From Cupriavidus agavae (GTDB lineage: Bacteria > Pseudomonadota > Gammaproteobacteria > Burkholderiales > Burkholderiaceae), in assembly GCF_004217045.1 (NCBI RefSeq), contig NZ_SGXM01000002.1, forward strand, positions 310,001-374,000: 64,000 bases of DNA, in the 5' to 3' direction. The position numbers were made by a program, and so were the translations under genes. Positions 4,742-24,582 of the stretch are shown here, one piece after another. How positions within the stretch are numbered: position 1 is the stretch's first letter; the number at the start of each line of letters is the position of its first letter. The notes under the pieces are model-generated. The model was not told the DNA's origin and ran no database searches. It was given only the letters and a program-made list of their open reading frames with translations.

Positions 4742-5431
4742 ATGCTTCCTACGGATCTCGCCGGCGCCGACGGCGACCAGAGCGCCTCGCTGCCCCGCTC
4801 CGAGCGCGCCTACCAACAACTGCGCGCCGCCATCCAGGCCGGCCAGCTCCCACCCGGCACCCGCCTGCGGGAGGTGGAACTGGCCGAATCGCTAGGGCTG
4901 TCCCGCACCCCGGTGCGCGAGGCGCTGTCGCGGCTGGAATCCGAGGGGATGGTAGTCAACGAGCCGAACCGGGGCATGATGGTCACGCGGCTCGACGCCA
5001 GCATGGTCAGCGAGCTGTATGTGATGCGCGAGGTACTGGAATCCACCGCCGCCGCACTGGCCGCCCGGCACGCCACCGACGTGGAGATTTCGCTACTGCG
5101 CGATATCGTCGAGCGCGACCTGTCGTTTGCCACCGATCCGGAAAAGCTGGCGATGAACAACCGCCTGTTCCACGAGACGCTGCATCGCTGCGCCCATAAC
5201 CGCTACCTGCTCAAGACGCTGCGCTCGCTGCACGAGTCGATGGCGCTGCTGGGCCGCTCCACGCTGGCCGTACCGGGCCGCGCCCGGGGCTCCTACGAGG
5301 AACATCTGGCGCTGGTGGAAGCGCTCGAAGCCCGCAACCCGGAACAGGCCGAGCAGATTACCCGGCGCCACATCCAGCAGGCCTACAAGGCCAGGCTGAC
5401 GCTATGGATCGAGGAGCAATCGGCCGGTTGA
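4742..5431 (+). CDS. GntR family transcriptional regulator (FCD subfamily)
   Basis: A 229-residue regulator with a winged helix at the N-terminus (LAESLGLSRTPVREALSRLE, wing NRGMMV) and an FCD effector domain containing NRLFHETLHRCAHNRYL and the terminal HIQQAYKARL helix. The ATG at 4742 is preferred; a TTG two codons upstream is an alternative, and neither has a strong ribosome site. It follows the TerC-like gene by 63 bases on the same strand. Its target is not evident; I found no copy of the 1499-1514 palindrome next to it, so it should have a different operator from the first GntR protein. Confidence 0.85.
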   Translation: MLPTDLAGADGDQSASLPRSERAYQQLRAAIQAGQLPPGTRLREVELAESLGLSRTPVREALSRLESEGMVVNEPNRGMMVTRLDASMVSELYVMREVLESTAAALAARHATDVEISLLRDIVERDLSFATDPEKLAMNNRLFHETLHRCAHNRYLLKTLRSLHESMALLGRSTLAVPGRARGSYEEHLALVEALEARNPEQAEQITRRHIQQAYKARLTLWIEEQSAG

Positions 5432-5459
5432 ACGGCTGAGCTTTCCTCCGGACGACAAA

Positions 5460-5507
5460 AAACCGGTCCGTCGCCCGCCTCTTGCGAAGCGGGCGACGGA
5501 CCGGTTT
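5460..5507. terminator. Strong bidirectional terminator hairpin
   Basis: A perfect 19-bp stem with a 10-base loop. The left arm (5460-5478) and right arm (5489-5507) are exact complements. It is flanked by a run of A on the left and TTTCTTT on the right, so it can stop transcription from both strands. It lies 28 bases after the second GntR gene. Confidence 0.9.
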
Positions 5508-5518
5508 CTTTATCAGCC

Positions 5519-5543
5519 AGCGGCGCCAGGTGCGCCGCTTTTT
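5519..5543 (+). terminator. Second, smaller terminator
   Basis: AGCGGCGC and GCGCCGCT form a perfect 8-bp stem with a 5-base loop, followed directly by a T run. It sits just beyond the 19-bp hairpin, so plus-strand transcription meets two terminators in tandem before the convergent small gene at 5563. Confidence 0.75.
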
Positions 5544-5562
5544 CATTTCAGCTTACGGCAGA

Positions 5563-5748
5563 TCAGCCGTTCGCGTAGACCACCTTGGCCTTGCGCGCTT
5601 CCGCCTGCAGGCGGGTGAAAACGTTCTGAACGGCGGCGATCACGCGCTTGGCGTCGTTCACGAAACCCAGGCGCTGGGTACCGAGCTCGCGCTCGATGAG
5701 GTCACGTTCCAGTTGATCGGTCAGCTTGATGTCGGATTGGGTGTTCAT
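5563..5748 (-). CDS. Small conserved hypothetical protein (61 aa)
   Basis: A short, charged, probably cytosolic and helical protein beginning MNTQSDIKLTDQLERD and ending AEARKAKVVYANG. It has no signal peptide or membrane segment. I believe it is real because of a very strong ribosome site (AGGAAGGAAG just before the ATG), a TACAAT-like -10 hexamer upstream on the minus strand (5793-5798), and a dedicated terminator region at its 3' end. I recognise no family or function. Confidence 0.65.
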   Translation of the reverse strand: MNTQSDIKLTDQLERDLIERELGTQRLGFVNDAKRVIAAVQNVFTRLQAEARKAKVVYANG

Positions 5749-5879
5749 GGCTTCCTTCCTTAACAGGGATTACCCTTATGGGGTTTTCCCGAATTGTAGC
5801 AGAAGGAATGTCGCATCGCAGCATTAGGTAATAGTGCGTATCGGGATGCGAAACAGTGGGTGTGGAGATCTGCACATGG

Positions 5880-7247
5880 CTACCCCGGATTGAGCGAAGG
5901 AAGCGCCGAGTCACTGGTTTTCGACGCGAAAAGCGCCTTACTGCCGATATTTCGCTGCAAAGCCTCGCTCAGGGGCGTTGCATTCCAGCCACTGTCGGCG
6001 CGGCTGGTACCGAACAGCTGCCGCTGCAGCGCGGTCACGGCATCGAGCAGGGCGCGGTCCTCCGCTGACTCCGCCCACTGCGTCGGCGTGGCACCGTGCG
6101 CAGTTTGCGTCCATCTCAAAAGCGCCTCATACGTTTCTTTCGCCTTCCCGGCCCGGGTGGCTTCCAGCACCGCTTCGAACAGCGCATCGGCACTTCCGGC
6201 CCGGGCCAGCCGCTGGGCGGCCCAGCGTTGCCGCAATCGGATCAGAAACGGCCACGCGCGCCAGATCAGCAGACCCGCCACCAGACCCACCGCCAGCAGG
6301 CCCCCGCTCCACAGCACATTGCGCCAGGACGTGGCGCCTTCCGCCCCGAAGCTGCCTGACGGTGCCAGCGCGCCCGACACAGGGGCGGCCGACACCTTCA
6401 CCTCGATGCCGGGTGCGGCCGAGTTCATCGGCTTGCCGGTGGCCGGATCGATCCAGTCGACCGTCATGGCCGGCAACCGGTAGGTGCCGGACCGCTCGAA
6501 CACGTACGTGACGGCATCGATCCGCGTGCCGCCCGCTGCGGCGGGGTCGTCAGCGCGGTCGGTCAGGCGGGGGTCGGCGGCAAACACCCGCACACCGCGC
6601 GGCGCGGGCGCGTGCGGCGGGTGGATCAGCATCGCCTGGGTGTCGGGGGCGAAGGTCGTGACGGTCCGCACGAGGGCGTCGCCGGCCTGGAGATTCACGG
6701 CGCCGTCAGCGGCACCGTGGTCCCATGCCTGCGTGATGACGAGCCGCGCGACGGGCAGCCGTGGCGTGGTGCCGGCGGCGCCAGCCCTGACCGGCCCGCC
6801 GGCGCCGGCGCGGACCCGCGTGGACGGAAAAGTGACACTTCCGCCGCGCGGTGCGCCGTCCTCGCCGGCATAGGTGAAGCGCACGGTCGGCGTAGGCAGG
6901 TCGAAATCGCCGTCCTGTCCGGCCGTGAAGGCGTAGCGCTTGCGGATGCCGGCGTAGGCCACGCCGCCGATGGTCTCGGTCGAGTTCAGCGCGCGTTGCT
7001 CGGGCAGCGTGACCACGGCGCCCGGCACCTGCAGCGCCGGGAAGTCGGGCGCAGACATGAAGAAGTTGGGGGCCAGGATCGTGACATCGATACCGATCTG
7101 CTGCCCCACGCGCACCGGCTGCTGTGCCGCCACCTCCACCCTGACGAGCGGCGCGGCCGCAGCCCGCGCCACCACGGGGAACATGACCGCTGCCAGCCAC
7201 AGCGCAGCCAGCCACCCGCCATGACGCCGCACTGCGCGGCGCATCAT
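5880..7247 (-). CDS. batD: BatD-like protein (oxygen tolerance / MoxR-operon membrane protein)
   Basis: A 455-residue exported protein. It has an N-terminal signal/anchor (GGWLAALWLAAVMFPVVARA), a large beta-rich periplasmic region rich in Ig-like strands (ending in YRLPAMTVDWIDPATGKP), and one late membrane helix (VLWSGGLLAVGLVAGLLIW, about residues 340-358). A basic cytoplasmic helical tail of roughly 95 residues follows. This is the layout of BatD, the partner of BatA/BatB in Bacteroides aerotolerance and similar MoxR operons, where it probably scaffolds the VWA proteins. ATGATG at 7247 overlaps the upstream stop, so translation is coupled. It is the last gene of the nine-gene operon. Confidence 0.8.
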   Translation of the reverse strand: MMRRAVRRHGGWLAALWLAAVMFPVVARAAAAPLVRVEVAAQQPVRVGQQIGIDVTILAPNFFMSAPDFPALQVPGAVVTLPEQRALNSTETIGGVAYAGIRKRYAFTAGQDGDFDLPTPTVRFTYAGEDGAPRGGSVTFPSTRVRAGAGGPVRAGAAGTTPRLPVARLVITQAWDHGAADGAVNLQAGDALVRTVTTFAPDTQAMLIHPPHAPAPRGVRVFAADPRLTDRADDPAAAGGTRIDAVTYVFERSGTYRLPAMTVDWIDPATGKPMNSAAPGIEVKVSAAPVSGALAPSGSFGAEGATSWRNVLWSGGLLAVGLVAGLLIWRAWPFLIRLRQRWAAQRLARAGSADALFEAVLEATRAGKAKETYEALLRWTQTAHGATPTQWAESAEDRALLDAVTALQRQLFGTSRADSGWNATPLSEALQRNIGSKALFASKTSDSALPSLNPG

Positions 7248-8887
7248 CGCCCCCCTGCCGGCGCGGCCGGCTGGCCCTGCTGCAGCGCGAACTTGCGTTG
7301 CAGCAGATCGGTCGGCGAGGTCTGGATCGCGCGCATCCACATCTCGGCATCCTGCGTCAGGCCGATCCGCATGGACTGGCCGCCCTGCTCCGGCGGCTTG
7401 GCGGCGTCGTACCTGATCTCGTCGGGCGGGATGTCGGGGGGCTCCTCCTGATCATCGGGCCGGGGCTTGTCCGCCGGCTTCTGCTGCGCCAGCAGTGCCT
7501 CCATCAGCGCCAGGTTGGCCGTGGCCGCCGGCCACTGCGGCTGGCGCCGCAGCGCCTGCCGATAGCGCGCCGCGGCCTGCTGGTACTGCCCCTGCCGCGC
7601 CAGCGCATCGCCCTGGTTGAAATCCGACTGCGGCGAATCGACCAGCGCGAAGCTCTGTACCGCCTGCGGGTACTGGCCGGCCCGGTACTGCGCGACGCCG
7701 CGCCACATGGCATCGTCGAACAGCGTCGCGGCGCGGGCGAAATCGCCCTGCTCGAACGCGCGGCGGCCCTGCTGGTCGTGCGTCAGCCACAGATCGGCAA
7801 AACGCCACGGCCGCGCCGCGCTGGCGGGCTCCTGCGCCTGCAGGTCGGGCGGCGGCATGGCCAGCGCCGCCAGCAGCAGCCCGGTGGTCCAGCGCACGGT
7901 CCAGCCCTTGCGGAACCACAGCATGGCCAGCAGCGAGATGGGCAGCACCAGCCACCAGCCTTCGTCCTGCCAGCGCGTCCGGTCGTCGGCCTGCATCTGT
8001 TCGAGGTGCGACTCGACATGGCGCTGCACCCACGCCACGTCATCGTCGCTGCCCGGCGTGAACGTTGCCACGGGCACGCCGCTATCCTCGCCGAACCGTT
8101 TCAGCGCCGCTACGTCGAGCCGGGCAAACACCCGGGCGCCGTCCTGTTCGACGAAGCTGCCTGCCGGTCCGCCGACATTGCGCAGCGGGCCGCCCTGTTC
8201 CGTGCCGATCGCCAGCACCACGGGCTGGCTGCGGCGGCTCTCGCCCTGCGCGCGGAAGGCTTTGCCCGCGGCGGGGTCCACCGCGTCGGTCAGGAACAGG
8301 ATGGTGCCCGGCACCGGCTCGCGCGCCAGGTCGGCGTCGATGGTGCGCAGCGCCTGGGCCATGTCGCGGCCCGGCGCCGGCATGATGCGGGTCTGCAGCG
8401 CGTCGACAAAGCTCTGCAGCAGGGCGGTGTCGTCGGTCAGCGGCAGCACCAGGTGCGTGGAGCCCGCGTAGGCGTAGAGTGCCGTGCGCCCGCCGTCGCG
8501 ATGCTTCAGCAGCGCCTTGATCTTGAGCTTGGCGCGTTCGAGCCGCGTGGGCGTGACGTCCGCCGCGTCCATGCTGCGCGACAGGTCCACCGCGATGGCC
8601 AGCGGGGCCTTGTCGTCGAGGAAAGGCGGCGCCTCCTGCCGCCAGCTCGGCCCGGCCAGCGCCACCGCGCCCAGGGCCAGCAGCAGCGCGGTCAGATGCA
8701 CCGGCCGCAGCGCCAGCCGGCGGCGCTCGCCGATCATCAGCGCGTCGAGCAGATGCGGCGCGATGGCTTGCCGCCAGCGCCGCCGCACGTCGCCACGGCG
8801 CTGCACCGCCCACACCAGCAGCATGGCCGGCACCAGCCCCAGCAGCCACCACGGGCGCAGGAAGTGGAAGTGCGGGAGCGCCTCCAT
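7244..8887 (-). CDS. batB: BatB/BatC fusion: membrane VWA domain plus TPR repeats
   Basis: A 547-residue protein. Two N-terminal membrane helices (WWLLGLVPAMLLVWAV, TALLLALGAVALAG) precede a VWA domain with a MIDAS metal motif DLSRSMDAADV and the later ILFLTDAVD strand. Two more membrane helices (about residues 325-375) follow. A periplasmic tail then carries TPR-like repeats (QQGRRAFEQGDFARAATLF, YRAGQYPQAVQSF, ARQGQYQQAAARYRQALRR). In Bacteroides the VWA part (BatB) and TPR part (BatC) are separate genes; here they are one. The start overlaps the BatA stop (TGATG). Confidence 0.82.
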   Translation of the reverse strand: MEALPHFHFLRPWWLLGLVPAMLLVWAVQRRGDVRRRWRQAIAPHLLDALMIGERRRLALRPVHLTALLLALGAVALAGPSWRQEAPPFLDDKAPLAIAVDLSRSMDAADVTPTRLERAKLKIKALLKHRDGGRTALYAYAGSTHLVLPLTDDTALLQSFVDALQTRIMPAPGRDMAQALRTIDADLAREPVPGTILFLTDAVDPAAGKAFRAQGESRRSQPVVLAIGTEQGGPLRNVGGPAGSFVEQDGARVFARLDVAALKRFGEDSGVPVATFTPGSDDDVAWVQRHVESHLEQMQADDRTRWQDEGWWLVLPISLLAMLWFRKGWTVRWTTGLLLAALAMPPPDLQAQEPASAARPWRFADLWLTHDQQGRRAFEQGDFARAATLFDDAMWRGVAQYRAGQYPQAVQSFALVDSPQSDFNQGDALARQGQYQQAAARYRQALRRQPQWPAATANLALMEALLAQQKPADKPRPDDQEEPPDIPPDEIRYDAAKPPEQGGQSMRIGLTQDAEMWMRAIQTSPTDLLQRKFALQQGQPAAPAGGR

Positions 8888-9930
8888 CACGGCCCTTCCC
8901 CTGCCGCGCCCGCCGCGCCCGCCGCACCGCCCTGCCCCGGCACGCGGCGCGGCGCCGCCGTCCAGGCCGAATAGCCGAACATCAGCGCCTGGTACAGCAG
9001 CACCAGCGCCAGCGCCGCGCCCAGCGGCCACATGAACAGTTCGCGGCGCGGCCGCCACGACAGCGTCGTCTGGTTGTGCGGCGTGATGCGGTCGAGCGTG
9101 GCGTAGATGGTCGCCAGCCCCGCCTGGTCGGCGCCGAAGAAATAGCGCCCGCCCGTCTGCGCGGCCAGCCGCTGGAGCCCGCCGAGGTCGACCTTCTCCT
9201 CGCCGGTGGCGTCAGGGTTGCCGATGCCGATGGTGTGCACCACCACCTTGCGCGCGCGGGCGATCTCTCCGGCGCGCTCGGGCGGCATCCGGCTGGCGGT
9301 GTCGTTGCCATCGGTCAGCACGATCAGCACCTTCTCGGGCGCCTGGCTGTGTTCGAACATCTTGATCCCGAGCCCGATGGCATCGCCCAGCGCCGTGCTC
9401 GGCCCGGCCATCCCCGGCAGCAGGTCGCCGATCAGCGTCTGCACGAGCCGGTGATCCATCGTGAATGGCGCCAGCGGATACGGCGCATCGCCAAACACGA
9501 TCAGGCCGAGGCGGTCGCCAGGGCGCCGCGCCACGAAGCCGCTCACCACCTGCCGCACCGCCGCCACGCGCGGAATCAGCGCACCGGACGGGTCGCGGAA
9601 ATCGCGGGTATCCATCGACTGGGACAGGTCCAGCGCAATCAGCAGGTCGCGCGCCGGCTGCACCTTCTCGATCGGGGCTTCAAGGAACTGGGGCCGCGCC
9701 AGTGCCGAGACCACCAGCGCCCAGGCCAGCGGCGCCAGCACCCACTGCAGGCGATTGCGGCGCGGCACCACGGCGCCGCTGGCTGGCGTCAGGCCGGCGG
9801 CGCTGGCTACCTCGCCGAAGAACGGCAGGCGCACGGACGGGCTTTCCTCGCGGTATGGCGGCAGCCACCACCACAGCAGCAGCGGCAACGGCAACAGCGC
9901 GAACAGCCACGGATAGTCAAACTGGAGCAT
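8887..9930 (-). CDS. batA: BatA-like membrane VWA protein
   Basis: A 347-residue protein with the family's arrangement: an N-terminal membrane helix (YPWLFALLPLPLLLWWWLP), a second helix near residues 60-78, and a VWA domain with a complete MIDAS (DLSQSMDTRDF; TALGDAIGLG; VLTDGNDTAS). A C-terminal membrane helix (WPLGAALALVLLYQALMF) follows. VWA proteins of this class bind a divalent metal and partner proteins and work with a MoxR ATPase as a membrane-associated chaperone. I start it at ATG 9930, where MLQFDYPWLF begins; it overlaps the DUF4381 gene by 14 bases. Confidence 0.85.
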   Translation of the reverse strand: MLQFDYPWLFALLPLPLLLWWWLPPYREESPSVRLPFFGEVASAAGLTPASGAVVPRRNRLQWVLAPLAWALVVSALARPQFLEAPIEKVQPARDLLIALDLSQSMDTRDFRDPSGALIPRVAAVRQVVSGFVARRPGDRLGLIVFGDAPYPLAPFTMDHRLVQTLIGDLLPGMAGPSTALGDAIGLGIKMFEHSQAPEKVLIVLTDGNDTASRMPPERAGEIARARKVVVHTIGIGNPDATGEEKVDLGGLQRLAAQTGGRYFFGADQAGLATIYATLDRITPHNQTTLSWRPRRELFMWPLGAALALVLLYQALMFGYSAWTAAPRRVPGQGGAAGAAGAAGEGP

Positions 9931-10456
9931 GGTGTTCGGCGATCCAGCGGCGGCACGCGGCGGCCACGGCCTGCACCTGCGCGGCGGGCCATTGGGCCAG
10001 CGCCGCGTCGTCGCGGTACTCGGCGTCGTGCACCAGTGTGGAGAGCAGCGGCACCGCGTCCCGTGCCCGCCCCGCGTGCGCCTGCAGGAATGCCGCCCAG
10101 CCCGCGCCGGACAGGCTGGCCACCTCGGCGCGCGGCCAGGCGGCCAGGGCGGTACGCTTGAGCAGCACGGCCATGTCCCGCAGCGCGGCGGCCTGCCGCG
10201 CGGGATCGGCCTGCATCGCCACGCCGGCCAGCGCCGCCAGCGCTTCGCGCCGGTAGCGGTTGGCGCGATAGCGCCGCCAGGCCCGCCAGCCAGCCCACGC
10301 CAGCGCGAGCAGCAGCACGCCTGCCAGGATTGGCCAGCCGATGGTCTGCGGCGCCCAGGACGGCGGCGGCGGCGTGACGATATCGGCCAGCTTCGCCAGC
10401 GAGACCACGCCAGCGCCATCGGCCGCCCCGGGTGCGGTGCTCTGCGTCAGGCTCAT
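9917..10456 (-). CDS. DUF4381 domain membrane protein
   Basis: A 179-residue protein with one membrane helix (WPILAGVLLLALAWAGWRAW, about residues 41-60). A basic RRYRANRYRREAL stretch and a helical cytoplasmic domain (ALRDMAVLLKRTALAAWPRAEVASLSG) follow. That is the DUF4381 pattern found between DUF58 and VWA genes in proteobacterial MoxR operons. Its biochemical role is unknown, but its fixed position suggests it is a structural part of the MoxR/VWA complex. The start ATGA overlaps the DUF58 stop. Confidence 0.8.
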   Translation of the reverse strand: MSLTQSTAPGAADGAGVVSLAKLADIVTPPPPSWAPQTIGWPILAGVLLLALAWAGWRAWRRYRANRYRREALAALAGVAMQADPARQAAALRDMAVLLKRTALAAWPRAEVASLSGAGWAAFLQAHAGRARDAVPLLSTLVHDAEYRDDAALAQWPAAQVQAVAAACRRWIAEHHAPV

Positions 10457-11484
10457 CGCGCCGCTCCCGGGCGCTGGCGTACCGGCGCCTGCTGCAGCGG
10501 CCGTCCCAGCAGACGGCGCAGCTGCAGCGCCGTCTGCTCGGCCGCCGAGAGCGGCAGCAGCGGCACGCCGATGGCGTGGTGCCAATCCAGCAAGGCCCGC
10601 GCATGGGCATCGACGAACTCGCCGATGCCGCGCCGCGTGGCGGCATGGCCGAAGCCCAGCTCCACCTGCAACTCGCCGTCGCTGACCACCAACTGGCCCG
10701 ATTCCGGCAGTTCGCTGAGGAATGGATCATGAACGAGGATCGTCAGCAGGTCGTTGCGCCCCGCCATCCCCAGCATCAGGTCGCGCGTGCGCGTGTCGTG
10801 GCCGTCGAAATCGCTGATGACGATGACCAGCCAGTCGTGGCCAGCCATGCGCGCGGCGCGCTCCAGCGCCGCGTCGAGCTGTGCCGCGGAACGCCGCGCC
10901 GGCGAATCGGCGCGCAACGCCTGGCTGAACCGCGCAATGCCGCCGAGCAGATGCTGGACCGACTCGCGGCTGTGGCGCGGCGCGAAGACCTCGGCGTCCT
11001 GGTCGCCAAAGACGATGCCGCCAACGCGGTCGCCCTCGGCCAGCACGCGCCAGGCGGCCAGCGCGGCGGCCTCGGCGGCGCTGACCGATTTCATCGCGCG
11101 GCGGCTGCCGAAGAACATGTTGATGCGCTGGTCCACCACGATCAGCACCGGGCGGTCCTTCTCCTCGGTGTAGACACGCACGTGCGGCTGGCCGGTGCGC
11201 GCCGTCACGCGCCAGTCCATGCTGCGGATGTCGTCGCCGGGCAGGTACAGGCGCAGTTCCTCGAAGGTCAGGCCGCGCCCGCGCACCTTGGACGCATGCC
11301 GGCCGGCCAGCACGCTGTGCCCCGGCTGGCGCGGCCGGAAGTGGAAATCGCGCGCCGCCACTTCCAGCGCGGCCAGCGCCGCCACGTCGACACTGACGCC
11401 GGGCACGGCGCCGGAGGCATGGGTCTGCGCGGCGGTCGGCGCGGCACGGGCGATGGCGCGGAAGGGCAGGCGCATCGGCGGCAT
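10453..11484 (-). CDS. DUF58 domain protein (MoxR-associated)
   Basis: A 343-residue cytosolic protein with the conserved DUF58 core: GLTFEELRLYLPGDDIRSMDWR, then HVRVYTEEKDRPVLIVVD. A VWA-like fold follows (VIVISDFDGHDTRTRD). DUF58 proteins are encoded beside MoxR almost everywhere and are thought to link the ATPase to the membrane VWA proteins. A GGGAGA ribosome site supports the ATG at 11484. The gene is separated from moxR by 19 bases. Confidence 0.85.
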   Translation of the reverse strand: MPPMRLPFRAIARAAPTAAQTHASGAVPGVSVDVAALAALEVAARDFHFRPRQPGHSVLAGRHASKVRGRGLTFEELRLYLPGDDIRSMDWRVTARTGQPHVRVYTEEKDRPVLIVVDQRINMFFGSRRAMKSVSAAEAAALAAWRVLAEGDRVGGIVFGDQDAEVFAPRHSRESVQHLLGGIARFSQALRADSPARRSAAQLDAALERAARMAGHDWLVIVISDFDGHDTRTRDLMLGMAGRNDLLTILVHDPFLSELPESGQLVVSDGELQVELGFGHAATRRGIGEFVDAHARALLDWHHAIGVPLLPLSAAEQTALQLRRLLGRPLQQAPVRQRPGAAR

Positions 11485-11503
11485 CGGTGTCTCCCGGCCC
11501 GCT

Positions 11504-12474
<971 letters not shown>

Positions 12475-12478
<4 letters not shown>

Positions 12479-15039
12479 GGGGCGGCTCCGGCCGGGGCCC
12501 GCCGCTCGGCACGCGCGGCCCGGCCGCCGACGAACCACGCGTAGTAGGGATTGTCCGGGTCGGCGCGCACGGCCTGCCGGATGTGGCTGGCCCAGGCGTC
12601 GCGGTCACCACGGTAGGCATCGAGTCCGGCGCGATAGAACGTATGCAGCACGCTGCGCTCGTGCCGCAGCTCGCGCCAGGCATCATCGTCGGCGCCGGCC
12701 AGCGGCGGGTCGCCCTGCAAGGCCAGCAGCTTCGAAAGCGTTTCGGGGAACGCGTCGCGCCGTACCCAGCCGGCGTACTCGATGCGCGGGCGGTCGTCGG
12801 TCACGGCCGGCGCGTCGGCGGCGTACCATTCGAGCCCGGCGCGGTCGGTGACCCACGTGGCCAGCAGCGCGGCCGGCGAGCGCACCCCCACGGCCTGCAG
12901 CGCAGACGCCACCGAGGGCTGGGCAAAGCGGGAGCGAATGCGATCGAGGTCCAGTTCGAGCGGGGAAAGGGAGCCAACCAGCATCATCTCGTGCAGCTCC
13001 GTGGTCCACAGCGTGGCGTGCGGAAAGACGTCGAGGAAGCTGCGCACCAGCATGCGGGTGTCCTCGTCGTTCTGCGTCGGCAGTGGCAGCCATTGCGCGA
13101 CTATTCCGCCCTGCTGCAGCCGCGCGGCCGCCAGCCGGTAGAAATCGGTCGAATACAGGTTCACCACGCCCGCCGCCGATGGGGGCGGCGGCTCCAGCGT
13201 GATCAGGTCGTAGCGCTGCGTGCTCTGCAGCAGTTCGCGGCGGCCGTCGCGCAGGCGGATCTCCATGCGGGGATCGCTGGCGACGCCGAAGTTGCCCTGG
13301 AACCCGGCGGCGGCGCGGGCCACCGGCGGCAGCAGTTCGGCCACCACGCGCTGCTCCAGCCCCGGCCAGGCCAGCGTGGCGCCCGCCGTGATGCCGGTAC
13401 CGAGGCCGATCACCAGCGTGGACCTGGGCGTGCCGTTGTGGAGGATCAGCGGCAGCAGCGCCTGCAGCCGCATGTAGCGCAGCGAGGTCATGGCGTCGCC
13501 GGAGTTCGACACGCCCTGGATGTAAAGGCGCCGGAAGCGGTTGCTCGACGACGCCTGCTCCACCACCGCCACCGTCGCACCGCGCCCTTCCTCGTAGAAC
13601 ACCAGCTCGCCACCCCTGGCGCGCGCCAGCAGCGAGGCGAGCCGGTCCACCGGCGCCAGCGCGGCGGCGACCACGGCCAGCACGCCGATCATCGGCACCG
13701 TCCAGCGCAGCGCCGGGCGCACGTCCCGGCCCAGTGCCACGGCGGCAAGGCCGACCACCGCCGCCGATACCGCCAGCAGCGACAGCGTCCTGACCAGTCC
13801 AAGTTGCGGCACCAGCACGAAGCCGGCCAGCACCGAGCCCGCGATGCCGCCCAGCGTATTGAGCGCCATGACCATGCCCACCCCGGCCCCGACGCGCCGG
13901 CCGTCCACGCTCACGCGCAGCACGAACGGAAAGGCCGCGCCGAGCAACAGCGTCGGCACGAACACCACCGACAGCGCGGCCAGCGCAAAGCTCGCGCAGG
14001 CGGCCAGCAGCGGGCTGGCCGTCATACCCTGCACCCAGACGGACACGCTTGCCTGCGCGCGCAGCAGCCACTCGCCGAGCAGCACGAATTCCAGCAGCGC
14101 CACCAGGCCGGCGCCGGCCACCAGCAGGCCGAAGACGCCCCACGGATCGCGCGCCCGCGCGGCGTGGCGCGCCGCCAGCGCGCTGCCGAGGGCGAGGCCG
14201 GCCAGATAGGTCGCCAACACCACGGTGAACGCAAACGTGCGCGTGCTGAGGAACTGCACGATGGCCTGCGACCAGACCACCTCGTAGCCCAGTGCAACGC
14301 CGCCCGCCGCCGCGTACAAACCCAGGGCCAGACGGCCGTTGGCGCGCACCTCGCCAGCCGGTTTGCCCGCCACGGCACCGGCCGGCGCCGCCAGTGGCTG
14401 CGCCCGCCCCGCCAGCCACCACGCCACCAGCGCCGCCGCGCCGTTGAGCACGCCGGCCGCCACGGCGCTGCCGAGGATGCCGAGCCAGGGCACCAGCACG
14501 AAGCCCGCCAGCAGCGTACCGGCGATCGCCCCGGCGGTATTGGCCGCGTAGAGCCGCCCGCCCTGCGCGCTGACACCCTCGTCGTCGTCCCGGCGCATCG
14601 CGCGCATCAGCACGGGCAGCGTCCCGCCCATCGCCGCGGCGGGCACGATGACCAGCACGAACAGCACGGCCCAGGCCAGCCAGCCCGTGCGCTGCTCCAG
14701 CCAGGCGAACGGCATGGCCGCATGCGCCAGCGCCACGGTGGCGCCGACGCCGAGCACCAGCACGGCCACTTCGAGCCATGCGTAGAGCCGCAGCGGCTGG
14801 CCGTGGCGGTCGGCCACGCGGCCCAGCAGCCAGCCGCCCAGCGCCAGCCCGGCGAAGAACGCGCTGACGGCCGTGGTGACCGCATGCACGTCGACCCCGA
14901 CCACCAGCGACAACTGGCGGATCCACACCACCTGGTAGGTCAGTCCGGCCGCACCCGACGCGAACAGCAGGACGGCGGCCCAGCGCCATGCCGGGTCGGC
15001 TGTCCTGTCCCGCTGCGCCACCATGGGAAGTGACGCCAT
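12475..15039 (-). CDS. Polytopic membrane protein fused to a spermidine synthase-like domain
   Basis: An 854-residue protein. The first ~480 residues form about 14 membrane helices in an MFS-like arrangement. The second part is a Rossmann methyltransferase-type domain like spermidine synthase: LVIGLGTGITAGATL (SAM loop), VAELLPP (acidic residue at the end of strand 2), RDGRREL, and LITLEPPPPSAAGVVNLYSTDFY. At the spot where true aminopropyltransferases have the catalytic aspartate there is LEPPPPS, so polyamine synthesis is doubtful. A short C-terminal helical tail follows. The start ATG overlaps the sulfatase stop. Such fusions are widespread but uncharacterised. Confidence 0.75.
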
Positions 15040-16799
15040 CACTTCTTCTTCATCGCTTCTTCGATCTTGCGGTCAACGTCCTCGCGCACCTGGTCGATGC
15101 TGAAGCTGGCCGGACGCTGGCTCGGCGGATAGTTGATGAAGGTCTGCAGGAATGCCGCCGCCTTCATGGTCGCCACCTCCGTCAGATAGACGTTCTTGGC
15201 CAGCCAGTCGTTGTACTGGTCGGAGACGATGTCCGCGCGCTCGTACGGGTCCATGCGCAGGTTGAAGATCTTGGGCACCCGCAGGCACTTGAACGGGTCC
15301 TGCCAGACCTGGAAGCCGCCCGGCGTGGTCTGCTCGCAGAACACGGCCTTCCAGTTGTCGAAGCGCATCGCCACCAGCACCCCATCGTCGTTGAAGTAGT
15401 AGAACTCGTTGCGCGCGCCCTTGTTGGTCTGGCCGGTCAGGTAGGGCAGCTGGTTGTAGCCGTCCAGGTGGACCTTGGCGTTCTTGCTGCCAATCGAGGC
15501 GCCCTTGAACAGGCGGTCCTTGATGTCGCCGTCGCCCACGGCCGCCAGCAGCGTCGGGAACCAGTCCAGCCCCGAGAACATCTCGTTGCTGACCGTGCCC
15601 GGCTTGACCTTGCCGGGCCAGCGGATCATGGCCGGCACGCGGAACGCGCCCTCCCAGTTGGTGTCCTTTTCGCTGCGGAACGGCGTGGTGGCCGCATCGG
15701 GCCAGGACCACTGGTTCGGCCCGTTGTCGGTGGTGTAGATGACGATGGTGTTGTCTGCCACCTTCAGGTCGTCGAGCGTCTTGAGCAGCTTGCCTACGTC
15801 GCCGTCGTGCTCGACCATGCCGTCGGCGTACTCGTTGCCCGGCATGCCGCTCTGGCCCCGCATCGACTCCCGCACGTGGGTGTAGGCATGCATGCGCGTG
15901 GTGTTCATCCAGACGAAGAAGGGCTTGTCGGCCTGCACCTGCTTCGTGATGAACTTCTGCGCGGCGTCGGTCGTCTCGTCGTCGATGGTCTCCATGCGCT
16001 TGGTGGTCAGCGGCCCGGTGTCCTCGATCTTGCCGTCGGCCGTGGAGTGCAGCACACCGCGCGGCGAGAAGTTCTTCACGAACGGGTCGTTCTTGTCTTG
16101 CGGCCAGTACGGGCGCTGCGGCTCCTCCTCGGCGTTCAGGTGGTACAGGTTGCCGTAGAACTCGTCGAAGCCGTGCCTGGTCGGCAGGTACTCGTCGCGG
16201 TCGCCCAGGTGGTTCTTGCCGAACTGGCCGGTGGCGTAGCCCAGCGGCTTGAGCGCCTCGGCAATGGTGATGTCGCGCGCCTGCAGGCCCACGGTGGCAC
16301 CGGGCACGCCCACCTTGGAGAGCCCGGTGCGCAGCGGCGACTGGCCGGTGATGAAGGTCGAGCGGCCGGCCGTGCAGCTGTTCTCGGCGTAGTAGTCGGT
16401 AAACATCATCCCTTCGCGGGCGATCCGGTCGATGTTCGGCGTGCGGTAGCCCAGCACGCCCATGCTGTACGCGCTGATATTGGTCTGGCCGATGTCGTCG
16501 CCGAAGATCACCAGGATGTTGGGCTTCTTGCCCGAGGTGTTGACGGCCGCAGGCGCGGAGGCGGCGTCGGGCGCCACCGGGATGTTGGACTGCGCCGGCG
16601 GCTGGGCCGGCGCGGTGTTCACGGGCGCGGCGGGCGCGCCTGCCGTGGGCGCGGGCGCCGGCTGCTGGGCGGCCGGCGCCGGCTTGGCCGGATCGTCGGC
16701 CTTCTTGCAGCCCGCCAGCGCCGCCATGGCGATCGCGACGGCAGCCATGGCAAAACGCGCATCGCGCCTTGCCGGGATCGAGACTTTCATTCGTTGCAT
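15039..16799 (-). CDS. Lipoprotein sulfatase (arylsulfatase family, Cys-type)
   Basis: A 586-residue alkaline-phosphatase-fold sulfatase. The signal ends in a lipobox (ALAGC, Cys31), so the mature enzyme should be a periplasmic or outer-membrane lipoprotein. A Pro/Ala-rich linker of about 55 residues follows. The metal-binding DD is in ILVIFGDDIG (101-102). The active-site motif is NSCTAGRSTF, with Cys142 the residue to be converted to formylglycine; it is C-x-A-x-R rather than the commoner C-x-P-x-R. Later come GKNHLGD, HAYTHV and YTTDNGPN. GGGAG precedes the ATG at 16799. It sits 25 bases after an FGE gene, its expected maturase. The substrate is unknown. Confidence 0.85.
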   Translation of the reverse strand: MQRMKVSIPARRDARFAMAAVAIAMAALAGCKKADDPAKPAPAAQQPAPAPTAGAPAAPVNTAPAQPPAQSNIPVAPDAASAPAAVNTSGKKPNILVIFGDDIGQTNISAYSMGVLGYRTPNIDRIAREGMMFTDYYAENSCTAGRSTFITGQSPLRTGLSKVGVPGATVGLQARDITIAEALKPLGYATGQFGKNHLGDRDEYLPTRHGFDEFYGNLYHLNAEEEPQRPYWPQDKNDPFVKNFSPRGVLHSTADGKIEDTGPLTTKRMETIDDETTDAAQKFITKQVQADKPFFVWMNTTRMHAYTHVRESMRGQSGMPGNEYADGMVEHDGDVGKLLKTLDDLKVADNTIVIYTTDNGPNQWSWPDAATTPFRSEKDTNWEGAFRVPAMIRWPGKVKPGTVSNEMFSGLDWFPTLLAAVGDGDIKDRLFKGASIGSKNAKVHLDGYNQLPYLTGQTNKGARNEFYYFNDDGVLVAMRFDNWKAVFCEQTTPGGFQVWQDPFKCLRVPKIFNLRMDPYERADIVSDQYNDWLAKNVYLTEVATMKAAAFLQTFINYPPSQRPASFSIDQVREDVDRKIEEAMKKK

Positions 16800-16824
16800 T
16801 GCTGCTCCCGGTAGTTGCACTGCC

Positions 16825-18069
16825 TCAACCTGCGTCCGGCACGCCTGGCGCGCCCGTCTTCCGTGTTGCCTGCTGACGCTTCTGCGCCCAGCTTCCTTCG
16901 TCCATGACCAGCCGGAAGCCAAGGTGCGACATGCTGTTGTACGGGTCCGTCCCGCGCCGCGCGCTGGGCCGGTAGCTCAGGCAGTAGTCCTCGTTGCAGA
17001 GGAACGAGCCGCCCCGCGTGACCCGCTTGGGCGCATCGAGCGGCACGCCGGGCTCGGATGGGTCCCATGAAGCCAACGGCCCGGCCGGGTTCTCGATCAG
17101 CCGCGCGCTGGCGGCCTCGCGCCGGAACTGGTCGGCCCGGTACCAGTCGGCCACCCACTGCCACGCGTTGCCCGTCATGTCGGACAGGCCATAGCCATTG
17201 GGCGGAAAGGTGCCCACCGGACTGGTGCCAAGCGCGCCGCCGGCCTTGGGGCTGACCACGGGGAATGGCTGGCGCTGCTGGCCCTGCCAGACATTGGCCA
17301 TCTGCCTGCCTTCGGGAGTGAACTGTTCGCCCCATGCGTAGGTGGCCTGTTCGAGCCCGCCACGCGCGGCAAACTCCCACTCCGCCTCGGTGGGAAGCCG
17401 TTTGCCGGCCCACCGGGCATACGCCTGGGCATCCTCGTACGAAACCTGCACGACCGGGTGGTTGTCCTTGCCATCGATGGAGCTGCCGGGGCCGTTCGGG
17501 TGGCGCCAGTCGGCGCCGGGCACGTAGCGCCACCAGCGCGAGTAGTCCTGCAGCGGCACCGGCCCCGGCGTGCCCACGAACACCATGCCGCCCGCCACCA
17601 TCGCGCTGTCGGGCGGGCGCGGCGTGCCGGGTGGCAACTGGACACGGAGGGTTTCCCAGGCGGGTGCCCGCTCGGCGGTAGAGATATAGCCGGTGGCTTC
17701 CACGAACTTGCGGAATTCGGCATTGGTGACGTGGTGCTGGTCCATCCAGAAGGCGTGGACCCGTACCTTGTGCGCGGGCTTCTCGTTGGGCTGGGCCTGC
17801 TTGCTGTCGCTGCCCATCAGGAATTCGCCGCCCGGCACGCGCACCATGCCGGCCGGACCGGACATCCCATCGCCCACGACGACGGCCGGCACGGCGGGCG
17901 CGCGGCCCGACGCGTACCACCAGAAGGCGCCGGCACCCAACGCCATGCAGGCGCAGAGCGTGGCCGCGAGCAGCGCCTTCTGGCTGCGCATCCGCCCGCC
18001 CATGCGCCCTGCCATGCCCGGGCGCCGGTGGTCCGCCGCCGCATCGATGCCGCTACCGCTTCCGCCCAT
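16825..18069 (-). CDS. Formylglycine-generating enzyme (SUMF1 family), membrane-anchored
   Basis: A 414-residue SUMF1/FGE-fold protein. An N-terminal hydrophobic helix (about residues 30-52, ALLAATLCACMALGAGAFWW) would anchor or export it. The catalytic domain runs from MVRVPGGEFLMGSD to GFRLVMDE and includes RLPTEAEWEFAARGG and MTGNAWQWVADWY. GGSFLCNEDYC contains the C-x4-C pair (Cys358/Cys363) that aligns with the two copper/redox cysteines of true FGEs. That makes it a genuine maturase rather than an EgtB/PvdO relative. AGAGGG precedes the ATG at 18069. It heads the operon and should activate the adjacent sulfatase. Confidence 0.82.
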   Translation of the reverse strand: MGGSGSGIDAAADHRRPGMAGRMGGRMRSQKALLAATLCACMALGAGAFWWYASGRAPAVPAVVVGDGMSGPAGMVRVPGGEFLMGSDSKQAQPNEKPAHKVRVHAFWMDQHHVTNAEFRKFVEATGYISTAERAPAWETLRVQLPPGTPRPPDSAMVAGGMVFVGTPGPVPLQDYSRWWRYVPGADWRHPNGPGSSIDGKDNHPVVQVSYEDAQAYARWAGKRLPTEAEWEFAARGGLEQATYAWGEQFTPEGRQMANVWQGQQRQPFPVVSPKAGGALGTSPVGTFPPNGYGLSDMTGNAWQWVADWYRADQFRREAASARLIENPAGPLASWDPSEPGVPLDAPKRVTRGGSFLCNEDYCLSYRPSARRGTDPYNSMSHLGFRLVMDEGSWAQKRQQATRKTGAPGVPDAG

Positions 18070-18438
18070 AGTGATTCCCTCTGCATCCGGAGGCCGCACG
18101 AAAGTACGGTAACCATAGTGTCAGAGGACGGCAGCAATCAGAAGTCAGCGTTTTAGCACTTTCGGGTACCAGTGATTTAAAGATTTCTGCGAAATCAGCG
18201 CGCGCCGGCAGCATGGCTCCGGGCCTGCCGGGCGCTCCCGGGCGCCTATTGCGCCCCGTCCCGGGGGCCCCGGGCACCGGCGCCCGGCCGTTGACGTGCT
18301 TTCCGGCAAAAGCCCTTCCGGAGCGGAATTCCGGGTCTGCCGCAGCGGCGTATCTTGCGGCCAGTTGTCGCTAACCCATGACATCCAGCACGGGCCGGCG
18401 AGAGACACGCAAAGCTCAGCTACCTGGAGTTGCCTGCC
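18070..18438. other. Divergent intergenic region (369 bases)
   Basis: This gap separates the minus-strand FGE/sulfatase/Bat operon from the plus-strand efflux operon and must hold both promoters. The part next to the FGE gene (about 18100-18190) is relatively AT-rich. The middle (about 18215-18295) is very GC-rich with short self-complementary runs such as GGGGCCCC-type blocks. I could not assign a confident -35/-10 pair or an operator, and I see no gene. Confidence 0.5.
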
Positions 18439-19950
18439 ATGACCCTGACCATGACGAATGCCAAGCGCGGATTCGCCAGCCCGCCTTCCGTCCGGCGCGC
18501 CGTGACGCCCGCGCTCGCCGCCCTCGTGCTCGCCCTCGGCGGGTGCGTGAACTATGGCGGCATCCATAGTGACCGGCAGATCACCACGCCGGACCAGTAC
18601 GCCACCGCCAACAGCCTCCCGGCGCAGGGCGGACAATGGCCGTCCACGGCATGGACCGACCAGTTCGGCGATCCGCAGTTGACGCAACTCGTGGCCGAGG
18701 CGCTGCAGGGCAGCCCGACCGTGGCGCAGGCCAAGGCCCGGCTCGACAAGGCGAGCTCGTACGTGGCGGCGTCGCGCGCCACGCTCTACCCGCAGGCCGA
18801 CGGCAGCGTCAGTGCCACCCGCCTGCGGTTGTCCGAGAACCTGGCCCCGCCGCCGTTCGGTGGCAACTGGTACAGCGATTTCAGCACGCTCGCCAGTGCC
18901 TCGTGGGATCTCGACCTGTGGGGCAAGAACCGCGCGCGGGTGGCGCAGTCCGTGTCGCAGCAGAAGGCCGCCGACGCCGACCTGCAGCAGGCGCGCGTCA
19001 CGTTGGCCACCTCGGTGGCCCGCACCTACAACCGGCTGGCCCAGCTCTATGCGCTGCGCGAGATCGCCAGCAACGAAGTGGATGACCGCACCGCCATGGG
19101 CCGGATTGCCGATGACCGGGTGGCCGCAGGGCTCGATACCAACGTGGACCAGCAGACCGCACGCGGCAACGTGGCCACCAGCCGTGCCAGCCTGAGCCAG
19201 TACGACGGCGAGATCGAGGTGGTCCGCTACCAGCTGGGTGCGCTGCTCGGCGAGGGTCCGGACCGGGGGCTGAAGATCGCCCAGCCGACGCTCGGCATTG
19301 GCGCGAGCGTCGCGCTGCCCGACACACTGCCCGCCGATCTGCTCGCGCGGCGCCCAGACATCGTTGCCGCCCGCTGGCAGGTGGAGGCGGCGCTTCAGGA
19401 CGTGAAGGAGGCGAAGGCCGAGTTCTTCCCCGACGTCAACCTGTCGGCCAGCCTGGGGCTCGATGCGCTGGGCTGGGGCCGCCTGCTGAAGGCGTCGAGC
19501 CGGCAGCTCAGCGTGGGCCCGGCCATCCACCTGCCGATCTTCGACGCGGGCGCCCTGCGCGCCCAACTCAAGGGGCGCTACGCGGATGTGGATGCGGACG
19601 TGGCGAACTACGACCAGACCCTGGTCAACGCGCTGTCCGAGGTGGCCACGCAGGTCTCGAAGATCCGCTCGACCGACCGGCAACTGGCCGACGCCCGGCA
19701 GGCGCAGGCCGCGTCCACACGGGCATACGACCTGGCCTTCGGCAACTACAAGGCCGGGCTGGCGCCGCAACTGCTGGTGCTGCAGGCCGATGAGACGCGG
19801 CTCGCCGCCGTGCAGTCGGCCACCAATCTCGCCATGCAGCGGCGCGACCAGCAAATGGCATTGATCCATGCGCTGGGCGGCGGGTTCGACGCGCAGGCCG
19901 AAGGGCTGGCGACACCCGAGGCATCGCCCCCCGGCGCCGCGCACCACTAA
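18439..19950 (+). CDS. NodT family outer-membrane efflux lipoprotein
   Basis: A 503-residue TolC-type outer-membrane factor of the RND/MFS lipoprotein class. The signal ends in a lipobox LALGGC. Two outer-membrane-efflux repeats follow, with markers WDLDLWGKNRARVAQS in the first half and LARRPDIVAARWQVEAALQDV in the second. Long helical stretches build the periplasmic tunnel. It is the first gene of a three-gene efflux operon with EmrA- and EmrB-like proteins, so it should be the outer-membrane exit duct. I prefer ATG 18439 (GGAG upstream) over a TTG three codons earlier. Confidence 0.88.
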   Translation: MTLTMTNAKRGFASPPSVRRAVTPALAALVLALGGCVNYGGIHSDRQITTPDQYATANSLPAQGGQWPSTAWTDQFGDPQLTQLVAEALQGSPTVAQAKARLDKASSYVAASRATLYPQADGSVSATRLRLSENLAPPPFGGNWYSDFSTLASASWDLDLWGKNRARVAQSVSQQKAADADLQQARVTLATSVARTYNRLAQLYALREIASNEVDDRTAMGRIADDRVAAGLDTNVDQQTARGNVATSRASLSQYDGEIEVVRYQLGALLGEGPDRGLKIAQPTLGIGASVALPDTLPADLLARRPDIVAARWQVEAALQDVKEAKAEFFPDVNLSASLGLDALGWGRLLKASSRQLSVGPAIHLPIFDAGALRAQLKGRYADVDADVANYDQTLVNALSEVATQVSKIRSTDRQLADARQAQAASTRAYDLAFGNYKAGLAPQLLVLQADETRLAAVQSATNLAMQRRDQQMALIHALGGGFDAQAEGLATPEASPPGAAHH

Positions 19951-19975
19951 GACATTCCCCATCCGGAGACCCACC

Positions 19976-21214
19976 ATGCAACCCTCTTCCCAGCCGCCCG
20001 TGGCGGCCGACCCCACCACGAAACACGGCCCCCGCCGACGCATGCTGGCCTTGCTGGCGCTTGCCGTCGCCGGCACCGGCATGGCCGCCGGCGCCTGGTA
20101 CTGGCTGGTGGGGCGCTACCACCAGACTACCGACGACGCCTACGTCAACGGCAACGTGGTACAGATCACCCCGCAGGTCACCGGCACCGTGATCGCCGTG
20201 CGCGCCGACGACACGCAGACGGTGCATGAAGGCCAGCCGCTCGTGGAACTCGACGCCGCCGACGCCCGCGTGACCCTGCAACGGGCCGAGGCAAAGCTTG
20301 CCCAGACCGTGCGCCAGGTCAAGGGCCTGTTCGTCGATGATGCCCAGTACGCCGCGCAGGTGGCCGTGCGCGAAGCCGACTTCGCCCGTGCGCAGGAAGA
20401 CCTGCGCCGCCGGCTGTCGGTCTCGCAGACCGGTTCGGTGTCGCAGGAAGATGTCTCGCACGCCCATGACGCCGTGCGCAGCGCCCAGGCCGCGCTCGAT
20501 GCCGCGCGGCAGCAACTGGCCGCCAACCGCGCCCTCACGATCAATACGACGATTGCCACCCACCCCGACGTGCAGGAGGCCGCGGCGCAGGTCCGCGACG
20601 CCTACCTGGCCAATGCCCGCAACCTCCTGCCAGCGCCGGTCAACGGCTACGTGGCCGAGCGTTCGGTACAGGTGGGCCAGCGCGTGTCGCCGGGCACGCC
20701 GCTGATGGCGGTCGTGCCGCTGCAGGACGTCTGGGTCGATGCCAACTTCAAGGAGGTGGAACTGGCGCACCTGCGCGTGGGGCAGCCGGTCACGCTGACG
20801 GCCGACGCGTACGGATCGTCCGTGGTCTACCACGGCCGCGTGGCCGGGTTCTCCGCCGGCACCGGCTCGGCGTTCTCGCTGCTGCCCGCGCAGAACGCCA
20901 CGGGCAACTGGATCAAAGTGGTACAGCGCGTGCCGGTGCGCATCGCGCTCGATCCGCGCGAACTGACCGCGCACCCGCTCCGCATCGGCCTGTCGATGCA
21001 GGCGGACGTGGACATCCACGACCAGACCGGCGGCGCGCTGGCGAAAGCGCAGCAGGCCACCGCCTACCAGACCGATGTCTTCGCCAGGTACGGCGACCAG
21101 GCCGATGCGGAGATCGCGCGGATCGTCGCCGCCAACGCGGGGCTGGGCACGGCACAGGGCACAGCGCAAGGAGACGCGCACCTGGCGATGCGCAGGAAGG
21201 CGAGCGCCACATGA
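19976..21214 (+). CDS. emrA: HlyD/EmrA family membrane fusion protein
   Basis: A 412-residue periplasmic adaptor. A single N-terminal membrane helix (ALLALAVAGTGMAAGAWYWL) precedes the family signature TTDDAYVNGNVVQITPQVTG. The first biotinyl-lipoyl half follows, then a coiled-coil hairpin (about residues 95-190), then the second half with APVNGYVAERSVQVGQRVSPGT and a beta barrel (VWVDANFKEVELAHL). Such proteins join the inner-membrane pump to the outer-membrane channel. The start follows a CGGAGA site, and the stop overlaps the next gene by 4 bases. Confidence 0.9.
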   Translation: MQPSSQPPVAADPTTKHGPRRRMLALLALAVAGTGMAAGAWYWLVGRYHQTTDDAYVNGNVVQITPQVTGTVIAVRADDTQTVHEGQPLVELDAADARVTLQRAEAKLAQTVRQVKGLFVDDAQYAAQVAVREADFARAQEDLRRRLSVSQTGSVSQEDVSHAHDAVRSAQAALDAARQQLAANRALTINTTIATHPDVQEAAAQVRDAYLANARNLLPAPVNGYVAERSVQVGQRVSPGTPLMAVVPLQDVWVDANFKEVELAHLRVGQPVTLTADAYGSSVVYHGRVAGFSAGTGSAFSLLPAQNATGNWIKVVQRVPVRIALDPRELTAHPLRIGLSMQADVDIHDQTGGALAKAQQATAYQTDVFARYGDQADAEIARIVAANAGLGTAQGTAQGDAHLAMRRKASAT

Positions 21215-24455: not shown

Positions 24456-24582
24456 ATGCCATGACAAAAAGGCCGTCGCAATGATGGCCGGTTCACGAAT
24501 GCGGCAGATCGTTGGGGGGATGCAAGTCGTTGCGCCGGGCTGTGCCGCGGCGCATTTGACCGTCACCGCAAGGAGAGCTCGC

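Follow-up and report, generated by a model that had tools for sequence, protein, structure and literature searches.

A conserved sulfatase operon with its own MoxR-Bat lineage in Cupriavidus and other soil and water bacteria

The window analysed here, a 64,000-nucleotide stretch of Cupriavidus agavae DNA (contig NZ_SGXM01000002.1, positions 310,001 to 374,000) within a 5.8 Mb genome, carries a nine-gene operon at positions 5880-18069 of the minus strand. Its genes encode, in order, a formylglycine-generating enzyme (FGE), a sulfatase, a membrane protein fused to a spermidine-synthase-like domain (SPD), a MoxR ATPase, DUF58 and DUF4381 proteins, BatA, BatB/C and BatD, and the closest named relatives of the window's proteins are Cupriavidus proteins. 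In several soil and water genera, a small set of genes centred on an exported sulfatase nearly always lies beside its own version of the MoxR-Bat genes, an arrangement suggestive of a joint function. The nine-gene operon is not peculiar to the window strain; the preliminary description, made from the DNA letters, would have been abandoned had the pairing occurred in one strain only, and sulfatase and MoxR-Bat are paired in many genera. We estimate a probability of about 0.5 that these genes form a conserved envelope module whose MoxR-Bat complex is dedicated to the exported sulfatase/SPD. The sequences themselves show the composition of the module, its linkage across genera and gene orders, its separate Bat clade, the re-assortment of its parts with linkage kept, and its intact active-site motifs.

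Linkage is conserved across genera and gene orders

With SPD as the marker, a search of a collection of named genomes found 341 loci encoding relatives; the best 80 were kept, 67 of them with full flanks (up to 10 kb on each side). MoxR, DUF58, BatA and BatB/C were each present at 67 of the 67 full-flank loci, a linkage that exceeds chance. The sulfatase was present at 66, a HAD hydrolase at 66, DUF4381 at 65 and FGE at 32. BatD was seen at 57; it frequently falls beyond the limit of the 10 kb flank. Six of the 13 short loci show no BatA, and all six run into a contig end on one side or both. Because SPD was the search marker that defined it, the 80-locus set is biased towards SPD.

A first set of 60 stretches (20 kb at most) surrounding sulfatase or FGE matches in Burkholderiaceae had MoxR in the cluster in 28. 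The other 32 comprise one locus where a short contig holds the cluster's front half (L106), three sulfatases standing alone (L110, L111 and L114), an FGE-HAD pair (L122) and 27 FGE loci, where FGE lies mostly beside other sulfatases. A phylum-wide sample (398 genomes) gave an SPD match in 36; eight of these reach at least 60% identity, and all eight lie beside Bat genes. Among the 28 distant SPD matches (30-43%), no MoxR or Bat gene was seen in any of the 17 stretches inspected (L196-L212). MoxR matches occurred in 105 of 185 genomes of a class-level sample, with only one to three per positive genome.

Genera with the module include Cupriavidus, Pandoraea, Paraburkholderia, Variovorax, Pseudomonas and Mesorhizobium; it spans three bacterial orders and both chromosomes and plasmids. 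Six gene orders were found:

Order A: FGE-HAD-sulfatase-SPD-MoxR...BatD; Cupriavidus, with HAD first in Pandoraea and in locus L104
Order B: DUF4381-BatA-BatBC-BatD-FGE-HAD-sulfatase-SPD-MoxR-DUF58; the C. pauculus group
Order C: Bat genes divergent from FGE-HAD-sulfatase-SPD; Paraburkholderia and Caballeronia
Order D: MoxR...BatD-HAD-sulfatase-SPD, without FGE; Pseudomonadaceae
Order E: FGE-HAD divergent from sulfatase-SPD-MoxR...; Mesorhizobium (L284)
Order F: HAD-FGE divergent from MoxR...BatD-sulfatase-SPD; one Ensifer and two Sinorhizobium plasmids

SPD was found on 16 plasmid records. In the five inspected, whose stretches carry no feature annotation in the records, SPD, MoxR, DUF58, DUF4381, BatA, BatB/C, BatD, FGE and HAD were present in all five and the sulfatase in four; the plasmid locus of C. 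metallidurans CH34 (L353) has order B without the sulfatase. One locus of the window's genus (L117, genome G181) has FGE, HAD, sulfatase, SPD, MoxR and DUF58 with no match to DUF4381, BatA or BatB/C, and is perhaps a decaying copy.

Co-occurrence was assessed in 200 Burkholderiaceae genomes, SPD being counted at 56% identity or more and FGE at 70% or more. BatA was present in 39 genomes, in 33 as the kind linked to the module and in six as a distant form (29-32%). All 33 genomes with linked BatA also have SPD and FGE, FGE within 10 kb of BatA in every case and SPD no more than 10.1 kb away in 32; in the remaining genome SPD is on another contig. SPD occurred in 35 genomes (a fragment in G365 and three matches at 31-32% were not counted), including those 33; in the two without BatA it lies at a contig end (G255) or is in two pieces (G240). 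Similarly, FGE was found in 36 genomes, 33 with BatA and three without (G164, G184 and G255). Fisher's exact test on the co-occurrence gives p ~1e-35, which is not an independent-sample probability, the genomes being related. Among 22 genomes of the window's genus, the sulfatase (E <= 1e-100) was present in 15/15 with BatA and 0/7 without.

A separate Bat lineage and re-assortment of the parts

The Bat lineage that goes with the sulfatase/SPD module is a clade of its own, as judged from the trees. In a MoxR, DUF58 and BatA tree, 32 linked rows stand apart from 17 generic rows with support 100; this tree was rooted at the midpoint, the linked rows were of our own choosing, and several generic rows sit on long branches. 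Two independent Bat recruitments, one of a Cupriavidus type and one of a Paraburkholderia/Pseudomonas type, were considered and dropped, as the 32 linked Bats are one clade; the re-assortment described below took the place of that idea. MoxR of the Paraburkholderia/Pseudomonas type is only ~56-63% like that of the window. None of 19 generic Bat loci from other genomes than the window's (L327-L345), drawn mostly from the higher-scoring class-level MoxR matches and including some short contigs (e.g., L331 and L334, under 7 kb), gave a match to the sulfatase, FGE, HAD or SPD. Three genomes with the Pseudomonas gene order (G440, G444 and G525) each encode both a linked BatA (50-52%) and a generic BatA (37-38%).

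A second, unlike MoxR-DUF58-BatB-like locus is present in the window's genome (L326, G000:C9:124000-143900; MoxR 50%), with a partial match to the N-terminal region of the sulfatase about 9 kb from the locus.

Trees of the different parts conflict. The SPD data reject a clade of Paraburkholderia/Caballeronia with Pseudomonadaceae (p 0.0012), the Bat data reject a clade of Cupriavidus/Pandoraea with Paraburkholderia/Caballeronia (p ~1e-121), and the sulfatase data reject a single clade of Cupriavidus/Pandoraea sulfatases (p ~1e-110). The tests used quick trees, and all p-values are flattering because the groups were named after the trees had been seen. These topologies indicate that the sulfatase in the slot has been exchanged, and Bat and SPD re-paired, with the neighbourhood kept. 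Conflict among the sulfatase, SPD and Bat trees with linkage maintained is stronger evidence of a working link than shared descent alone.

Genes and junctions of the operon

The nine minus-strand genes, whose positions and identities the preliminary description had proposed, were all borne out by profile matches:

16825..18069, minus: FGE family, 414 aa, N-terminal membrane-anchor-like segment at residues 32-50 by hydropathy (PF03781, 280.6 bits)
15039..16799, minus: type I sulfatase, predicted exported lipoprotein, 586 aa, lipobox LAGC, motif CTAGR (PF00884, 169.5 bits)
12475..15039, minus: SPD, polytopic MFS-like membrane domain fused to a spermidine-synthase-like domain (NF037959 MFS_SpdSyn, 139.8 bits, cut-off 40)
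11504..12478, minus: MoxR AAA+ ATPase, Walker A GLPGLAKT (PF07726, 205 bits)
10453..11484, minus: DUF58 protein (PF01882, 139 bits)
9917..10456, minus: DUF4381 protein, one membrane-like segment (PF14316, 122 bits)
8887..9930, minus: BatA, VWA domain with MIDAS-like DLSQS, C-terminal membrane-like segment (PF00092, 60.7 bits; NF047508, 104 bits, below cut-off)
7244..8887, minus: BatB/C, fusion of VWA (DLSRS) and TPR (PF13519 VWA_2, 55 bits; TPR_2)
5880..7247, minus: BatD-like, two membrane-like segments (DUF7939, 40.9 bits; Pfam BatD model, 20.4 bits, cut-off 24.1)

With the preferred starts the only gaps are 25 bases (FGE/sulfatase) and 19 bases (MoxR/DUF58), and the remaining six junctions overlap by 1-14 bases; the seven overlapping or abutting junctions of eight reported before are obtained with a more upstream DUF58 start, and otherwise the number is six. 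No sigma-70-like promoter was seen over positions 5300-18700, where 0.7 is expected by chance. MoxR has its Walker A motif and no membrane segment, and the VWA proteins have DxSxS motifs and membrane-like segments. The operon thus has the marks of a Bat/MoxR-VWA operon: MoxR with Walker A, two DxSxS VWA proteins, TPR, DUF58 and DUF7939, with the Pfam BatD match below threshold.

The sulfatase, SPD and the HAD hydrolase

The sulfatase aligns to structure 7aj0 (E 2e-58) and also to arylsulfatase A, and Foldseek ranked PsFucS1 and arylsulfatase A first for its model (pLDDT 62). The sulfatase fold and the C/S-X-P/A-X-R motif, present as CTAGR, place it among type I (S1) sulfatases; CTAGR occurs in 78 of 81 rows, and the remaining three rows have no match. 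The available part of PMC10154612 gives the S1 consensus as C/S-X-P/A-S/X-R, of which CTAGR is an allowed form, and describes S1 sulfatases as binding an essential calcium, so that metal loading would be a natural candidate step. Elsewhere the window's genome retains the C-terminal piece of a sulfatase relative (44-53%; L042; G000:C15, around 40919-41274).

SPD has 13 hydrophobic segments, and its model (pLDDT 71) matches MFS transporters and the spermidine synthase 1iy9. Because their confidence is middling, the SPD and sulfatase models were used to confirm fold class only. Polyamine aminopropyltransferases have a catalytic D-S-x-D-P motif, which SPD lacks: VDSTEP of 1iy9 aligns with LEPPPP, and EPPPPS is invariant across 11 SPD rows. 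Polyamine synthesis is therefore not to be assumed. A literature search combining 'fused MFS', spermidine synthase and membrane found no description of such a protein.

The HAD hydrolase (query P0012; PF12710, solved relative 4ovy) has a DNDGT motif and a signal-peptide-like N-terminus, and it adjoins FGE, the sulfatase or SPD in most loci. It has no match within the window, in contrast to its presence at 66/67 full-flank loci. The sulfatase and HAD thus both have export-signal-like N-termini. Between Cupriavidus and Pseudomonas the sulfatase is the best conserved component (~80% identity in the catalytic part, as against ~63% for SPD and ~60% for MoxR).

FGE is an optional member

The FGE of the window finds 6s07 as its best PDB match (E 3.5e-74) with both C-x4-C cysteines aligned (GGSFLCNEDYC). 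It has the PF03781 core and the two catalytic cysteines of an aerobic FGE, and this cysteine pair is present in all 35 linked FGEs, the window's included. N-terminal hydropathy reaches at least 1.6 in 29 of the 35; no anchor-like segment was seen in Mesorhizobium or, by eye, in three Rhizobiaceae loci, which have a different FGE (45-46%) in the slot.

The preliminary description had made FGE one of a pair of clients together with the sulfatase. However, no FGE was found at 41 Pseudomonadaceae loci, where up to 10 kb was examined on each side and the other module genes are kept. FGE is therefore not a core member, and it was rejected as the core client. The FGE query (P0009) gave no match at E <= 1e-20 in G440, G444 and G525. 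In nine genomes, these three (assigned to the family by us) and six named Pseudomonadaceae, the PF03781 protein inspected, the best-scoring one of each, lacks the cysteine pair in eight; the ninth, P. viridiflava (G931), has it in a protein that is not at the cluster. The anaerobic sulfatase-maturating enzyme anSME (TIGR03942) scored above its cut-off in none of these nine and in one of 13 genomes, that of Paraburkholderia domus. A weaker radical-SAM relative (~109-112 bits, cut-off 349) occurs in seven of the nine.

The FGE-free Pseudomonas versions raise the question of how a Cys-type sulfatase matures without FGE or a recognised anSME. E. coli can convert some Cys-type sulfatases without a known FGE. 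MoxR-Bat/SPD might itself be a sulfatase-activating system that makes or replaces the formylglycine step in Pseudomonadaceae lacking a paired-cysteine FGE and an above-cut-off anSME; we consider this quite improbable, and if true it would be a further aerobic route of sulfatase maturation.

A second, different pairing of an FGE fold with an MFS/spermidine-synthase fusion was seen at 11 loci of the same phylum (L197-L198, L201-L205, L208-L210 and L212), where a distant relative of SPD (~30%) has close to it a protein of FGE fold that lacks the cysteine pair (RGGSWKSDP...). At L202, the one with a Pfam scan, this pair lies within a cytochrome oxidase cluster (COX1, FixO and cytochromes c).

Proposed function and alternative explanations

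The module combines a type I sulfatase predicted to be exported, in most cases a secreted HAD hydrolase, SPD, FGE in many lineages, and its own lineage of MoxR-DUF58-DUF4381-BatA-BatB/C-BatD proteins. FGE, or elsewhere another route, would turn the cysteine of CTAGR into formylglycine. An ATP-driven MoxR ring, which the membrane VWA proteins would direct by way of their MIDAS metal, might then remodel the exported sulfatase, or SPD as its membrane partner, in folding, calcium uptake or hand-on, by analogy with NorQ/NorD and nitric oxide reductase. In that precedent, ATP hydrolysis and an intact MIDAS are required for iron insertion, according to the accessible part of PMC9976466. The sulfatase, HAD and SPD could finally act on one sulfated or phosphorylated compound of the envelope or imported from outside. 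Action of MoxR-Bat on the sulfatase is what we infer from the conserved arrangement.

Several observations weigh against a sulfatase-dedicated complex. What ties Bat to the sulfatase is conserved linkage. Because generic Bat operons exist without the module genes (0 of 19 loci), the basic function of Bat cannot be sulfatase-specific, and known bat and moxR mutant phenotypes, in the text available of PMC11834572, concern stress resistance. At three loci (L126, L234 and L353) the sulfatase slot is empty and Bat, HAD and SPD are retained, as seen at the loci themselves. L110, L111 and L114, of the window's genus, hold a sulfatase of the window's family without module neighbours, and two of these three genomes (G170 and G190) carry the module elsewhere. 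The sulfatase family is also far larger than the module: all 8000 scored candidates pass E 1e-60, and its relatives in other families (46-59% identity; L025-L030) lack neighbouring Bat genes.

The empty slots also bear on whether SPD, and not the sulfatase, is the client of MoxR-Bat, with the sulfatase, HAD and FGE as enzymes that supply or draw on the pathway in which SPD works. Those three loci retain both SPD and Bat, and SPD is the steadiest Bat partner across lineages, accompanying linked BatA in 33/33 Burkholderiaceae genomes; FGE is as strict there and is absent in Pseudomonadaceae. However, SPD was the marker behind the biased 80-locus set, and the sulfatase is better conserved between Cupriavidus and Pseudomonas than SPD or MoxR; we hold this explanation to be doubtful. 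The stress phenotypes of Bat mutants elsewhere (PMC11834572, in part) would suit a model in which the sulfatase genes and MoxR-Bat belong to one co-regulated envelope-stress or remodelling response without ever coming into contact, and co-regulation by itself can hold genes together. The module has its separate Bat clade even in cells with a generic Bat, and simple co-regulation is disfavoured because a second Bat would not be needed; we regard it as unlikely.

FGE is a copper enzyme, according to the portion available of PMC4505483, and MoxR/VWA could load copper into it or keep it active in the periplasm; its adjacency in Burkholderiaceae and the clearly hydrophobic N-terminal segment of 29/35 linked FGEs fit this. 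Bat, SPD and the sulfatase nevertheless remain at the 41 Pseudomonadaceae loci, none with FGE, in a family where the best PF03781 protein of eight of nine genomes lacks the cysteine pair, and the three Rhizobiaceae loci use their different FGE without a visible anchor. The FGE-free Pseudomonas loci largely refute FGE as client, and it is highly improbable. Unrelated genes might also hitchhike together on a genomic island or chromid, as the copies on megaplasmids among the 16 plasmid records could hint; six gene orders, on chromosomes and plasmids of three bacterial orders, with linkage kept under conflicting trees, refute this in its simple form and leave it barely credible. Bat operons are widespread, and a Bat lineage genetically tied to few enzymes narrows the choice to a handful of candidate clients, for which sulfatase activity and formylglycine mass offer an easy readout.

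Comparison with known systems

Generic Bat/MoxR-DUF58-VWA operons share MoxR, DUF58, DUF4381, BatA, BatB/C and BatD with the module, mostly in the usual order. The module differs in that its Bat genes form a separate clade and are joined to the sulfatase, HAD, SPD and often FGE, as in none of the 19 generic loci. NorQ/NorD, CbbQ/CbbO and RavA/ViaA, remodelers that serve one client each, have in common with it a MoxR AAA+ protein and a MIDAS VWA protein encoded beside a metalloenzyme; unlike NorQ/NorD, the module has VWA proteins with membrane-like segments, and its candidate client is exported. Bacterial S1 sulfatase-FGE pairs similarly place a Cys-type sulfatase next to an FGE with the cysteine pair, whereas the FGE of the module has an N-terminal anchor-like segment and is not in all cluster lineages; prokaryotic FGE is described as cytosolic in the part available of PMC4505483. 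MoxR-vWA ternary conflict systems with FGS domains (eLife 2020, PMC7159879) share MoxR, VWA and an FGE-like fold, as far as the accessible text goes. In those systems the FGS domain serves as effector, often joined to the vWA protein and diversified by diversity-generating retroelements (PMC7159879, same portion), whereas in the module the FGE, with its cysteine pair, is a protein of its own next to a sulfatase.

The module appears to be a MoxR-VWA operon with a dedicated partner, and we found no description of this composition in a literature search that left most subscription papers outside; the same holds for MoxR with a sulfatase and BatA, and the earlier judgement that no such system had been described stood up within that scope. 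Papers on MoxR and FGE, in the parts available, included none about sulfatase maturation. Those naming MoxR and arylsulfatase, by title, deal with a metaproteome from soil, a community on a glacier and the reconstruction of a regulon.

Neighbouring genes in the window

Divergent from the operon, positions 18430-22764 (plus strand) hold frames resembling an outer-membrane efflux lipoprotein, an HlyD-like protein and an MFS drug-efflux protein, by eye a tripartite exporter. Further on, positions 24481-32937 (plus strand) hold a 2818-aa open frame with Ig-like repeats followed by glycine/aspartate-rich RTX-like repeats, by eye resembling a giant secreted or surface adhesin.

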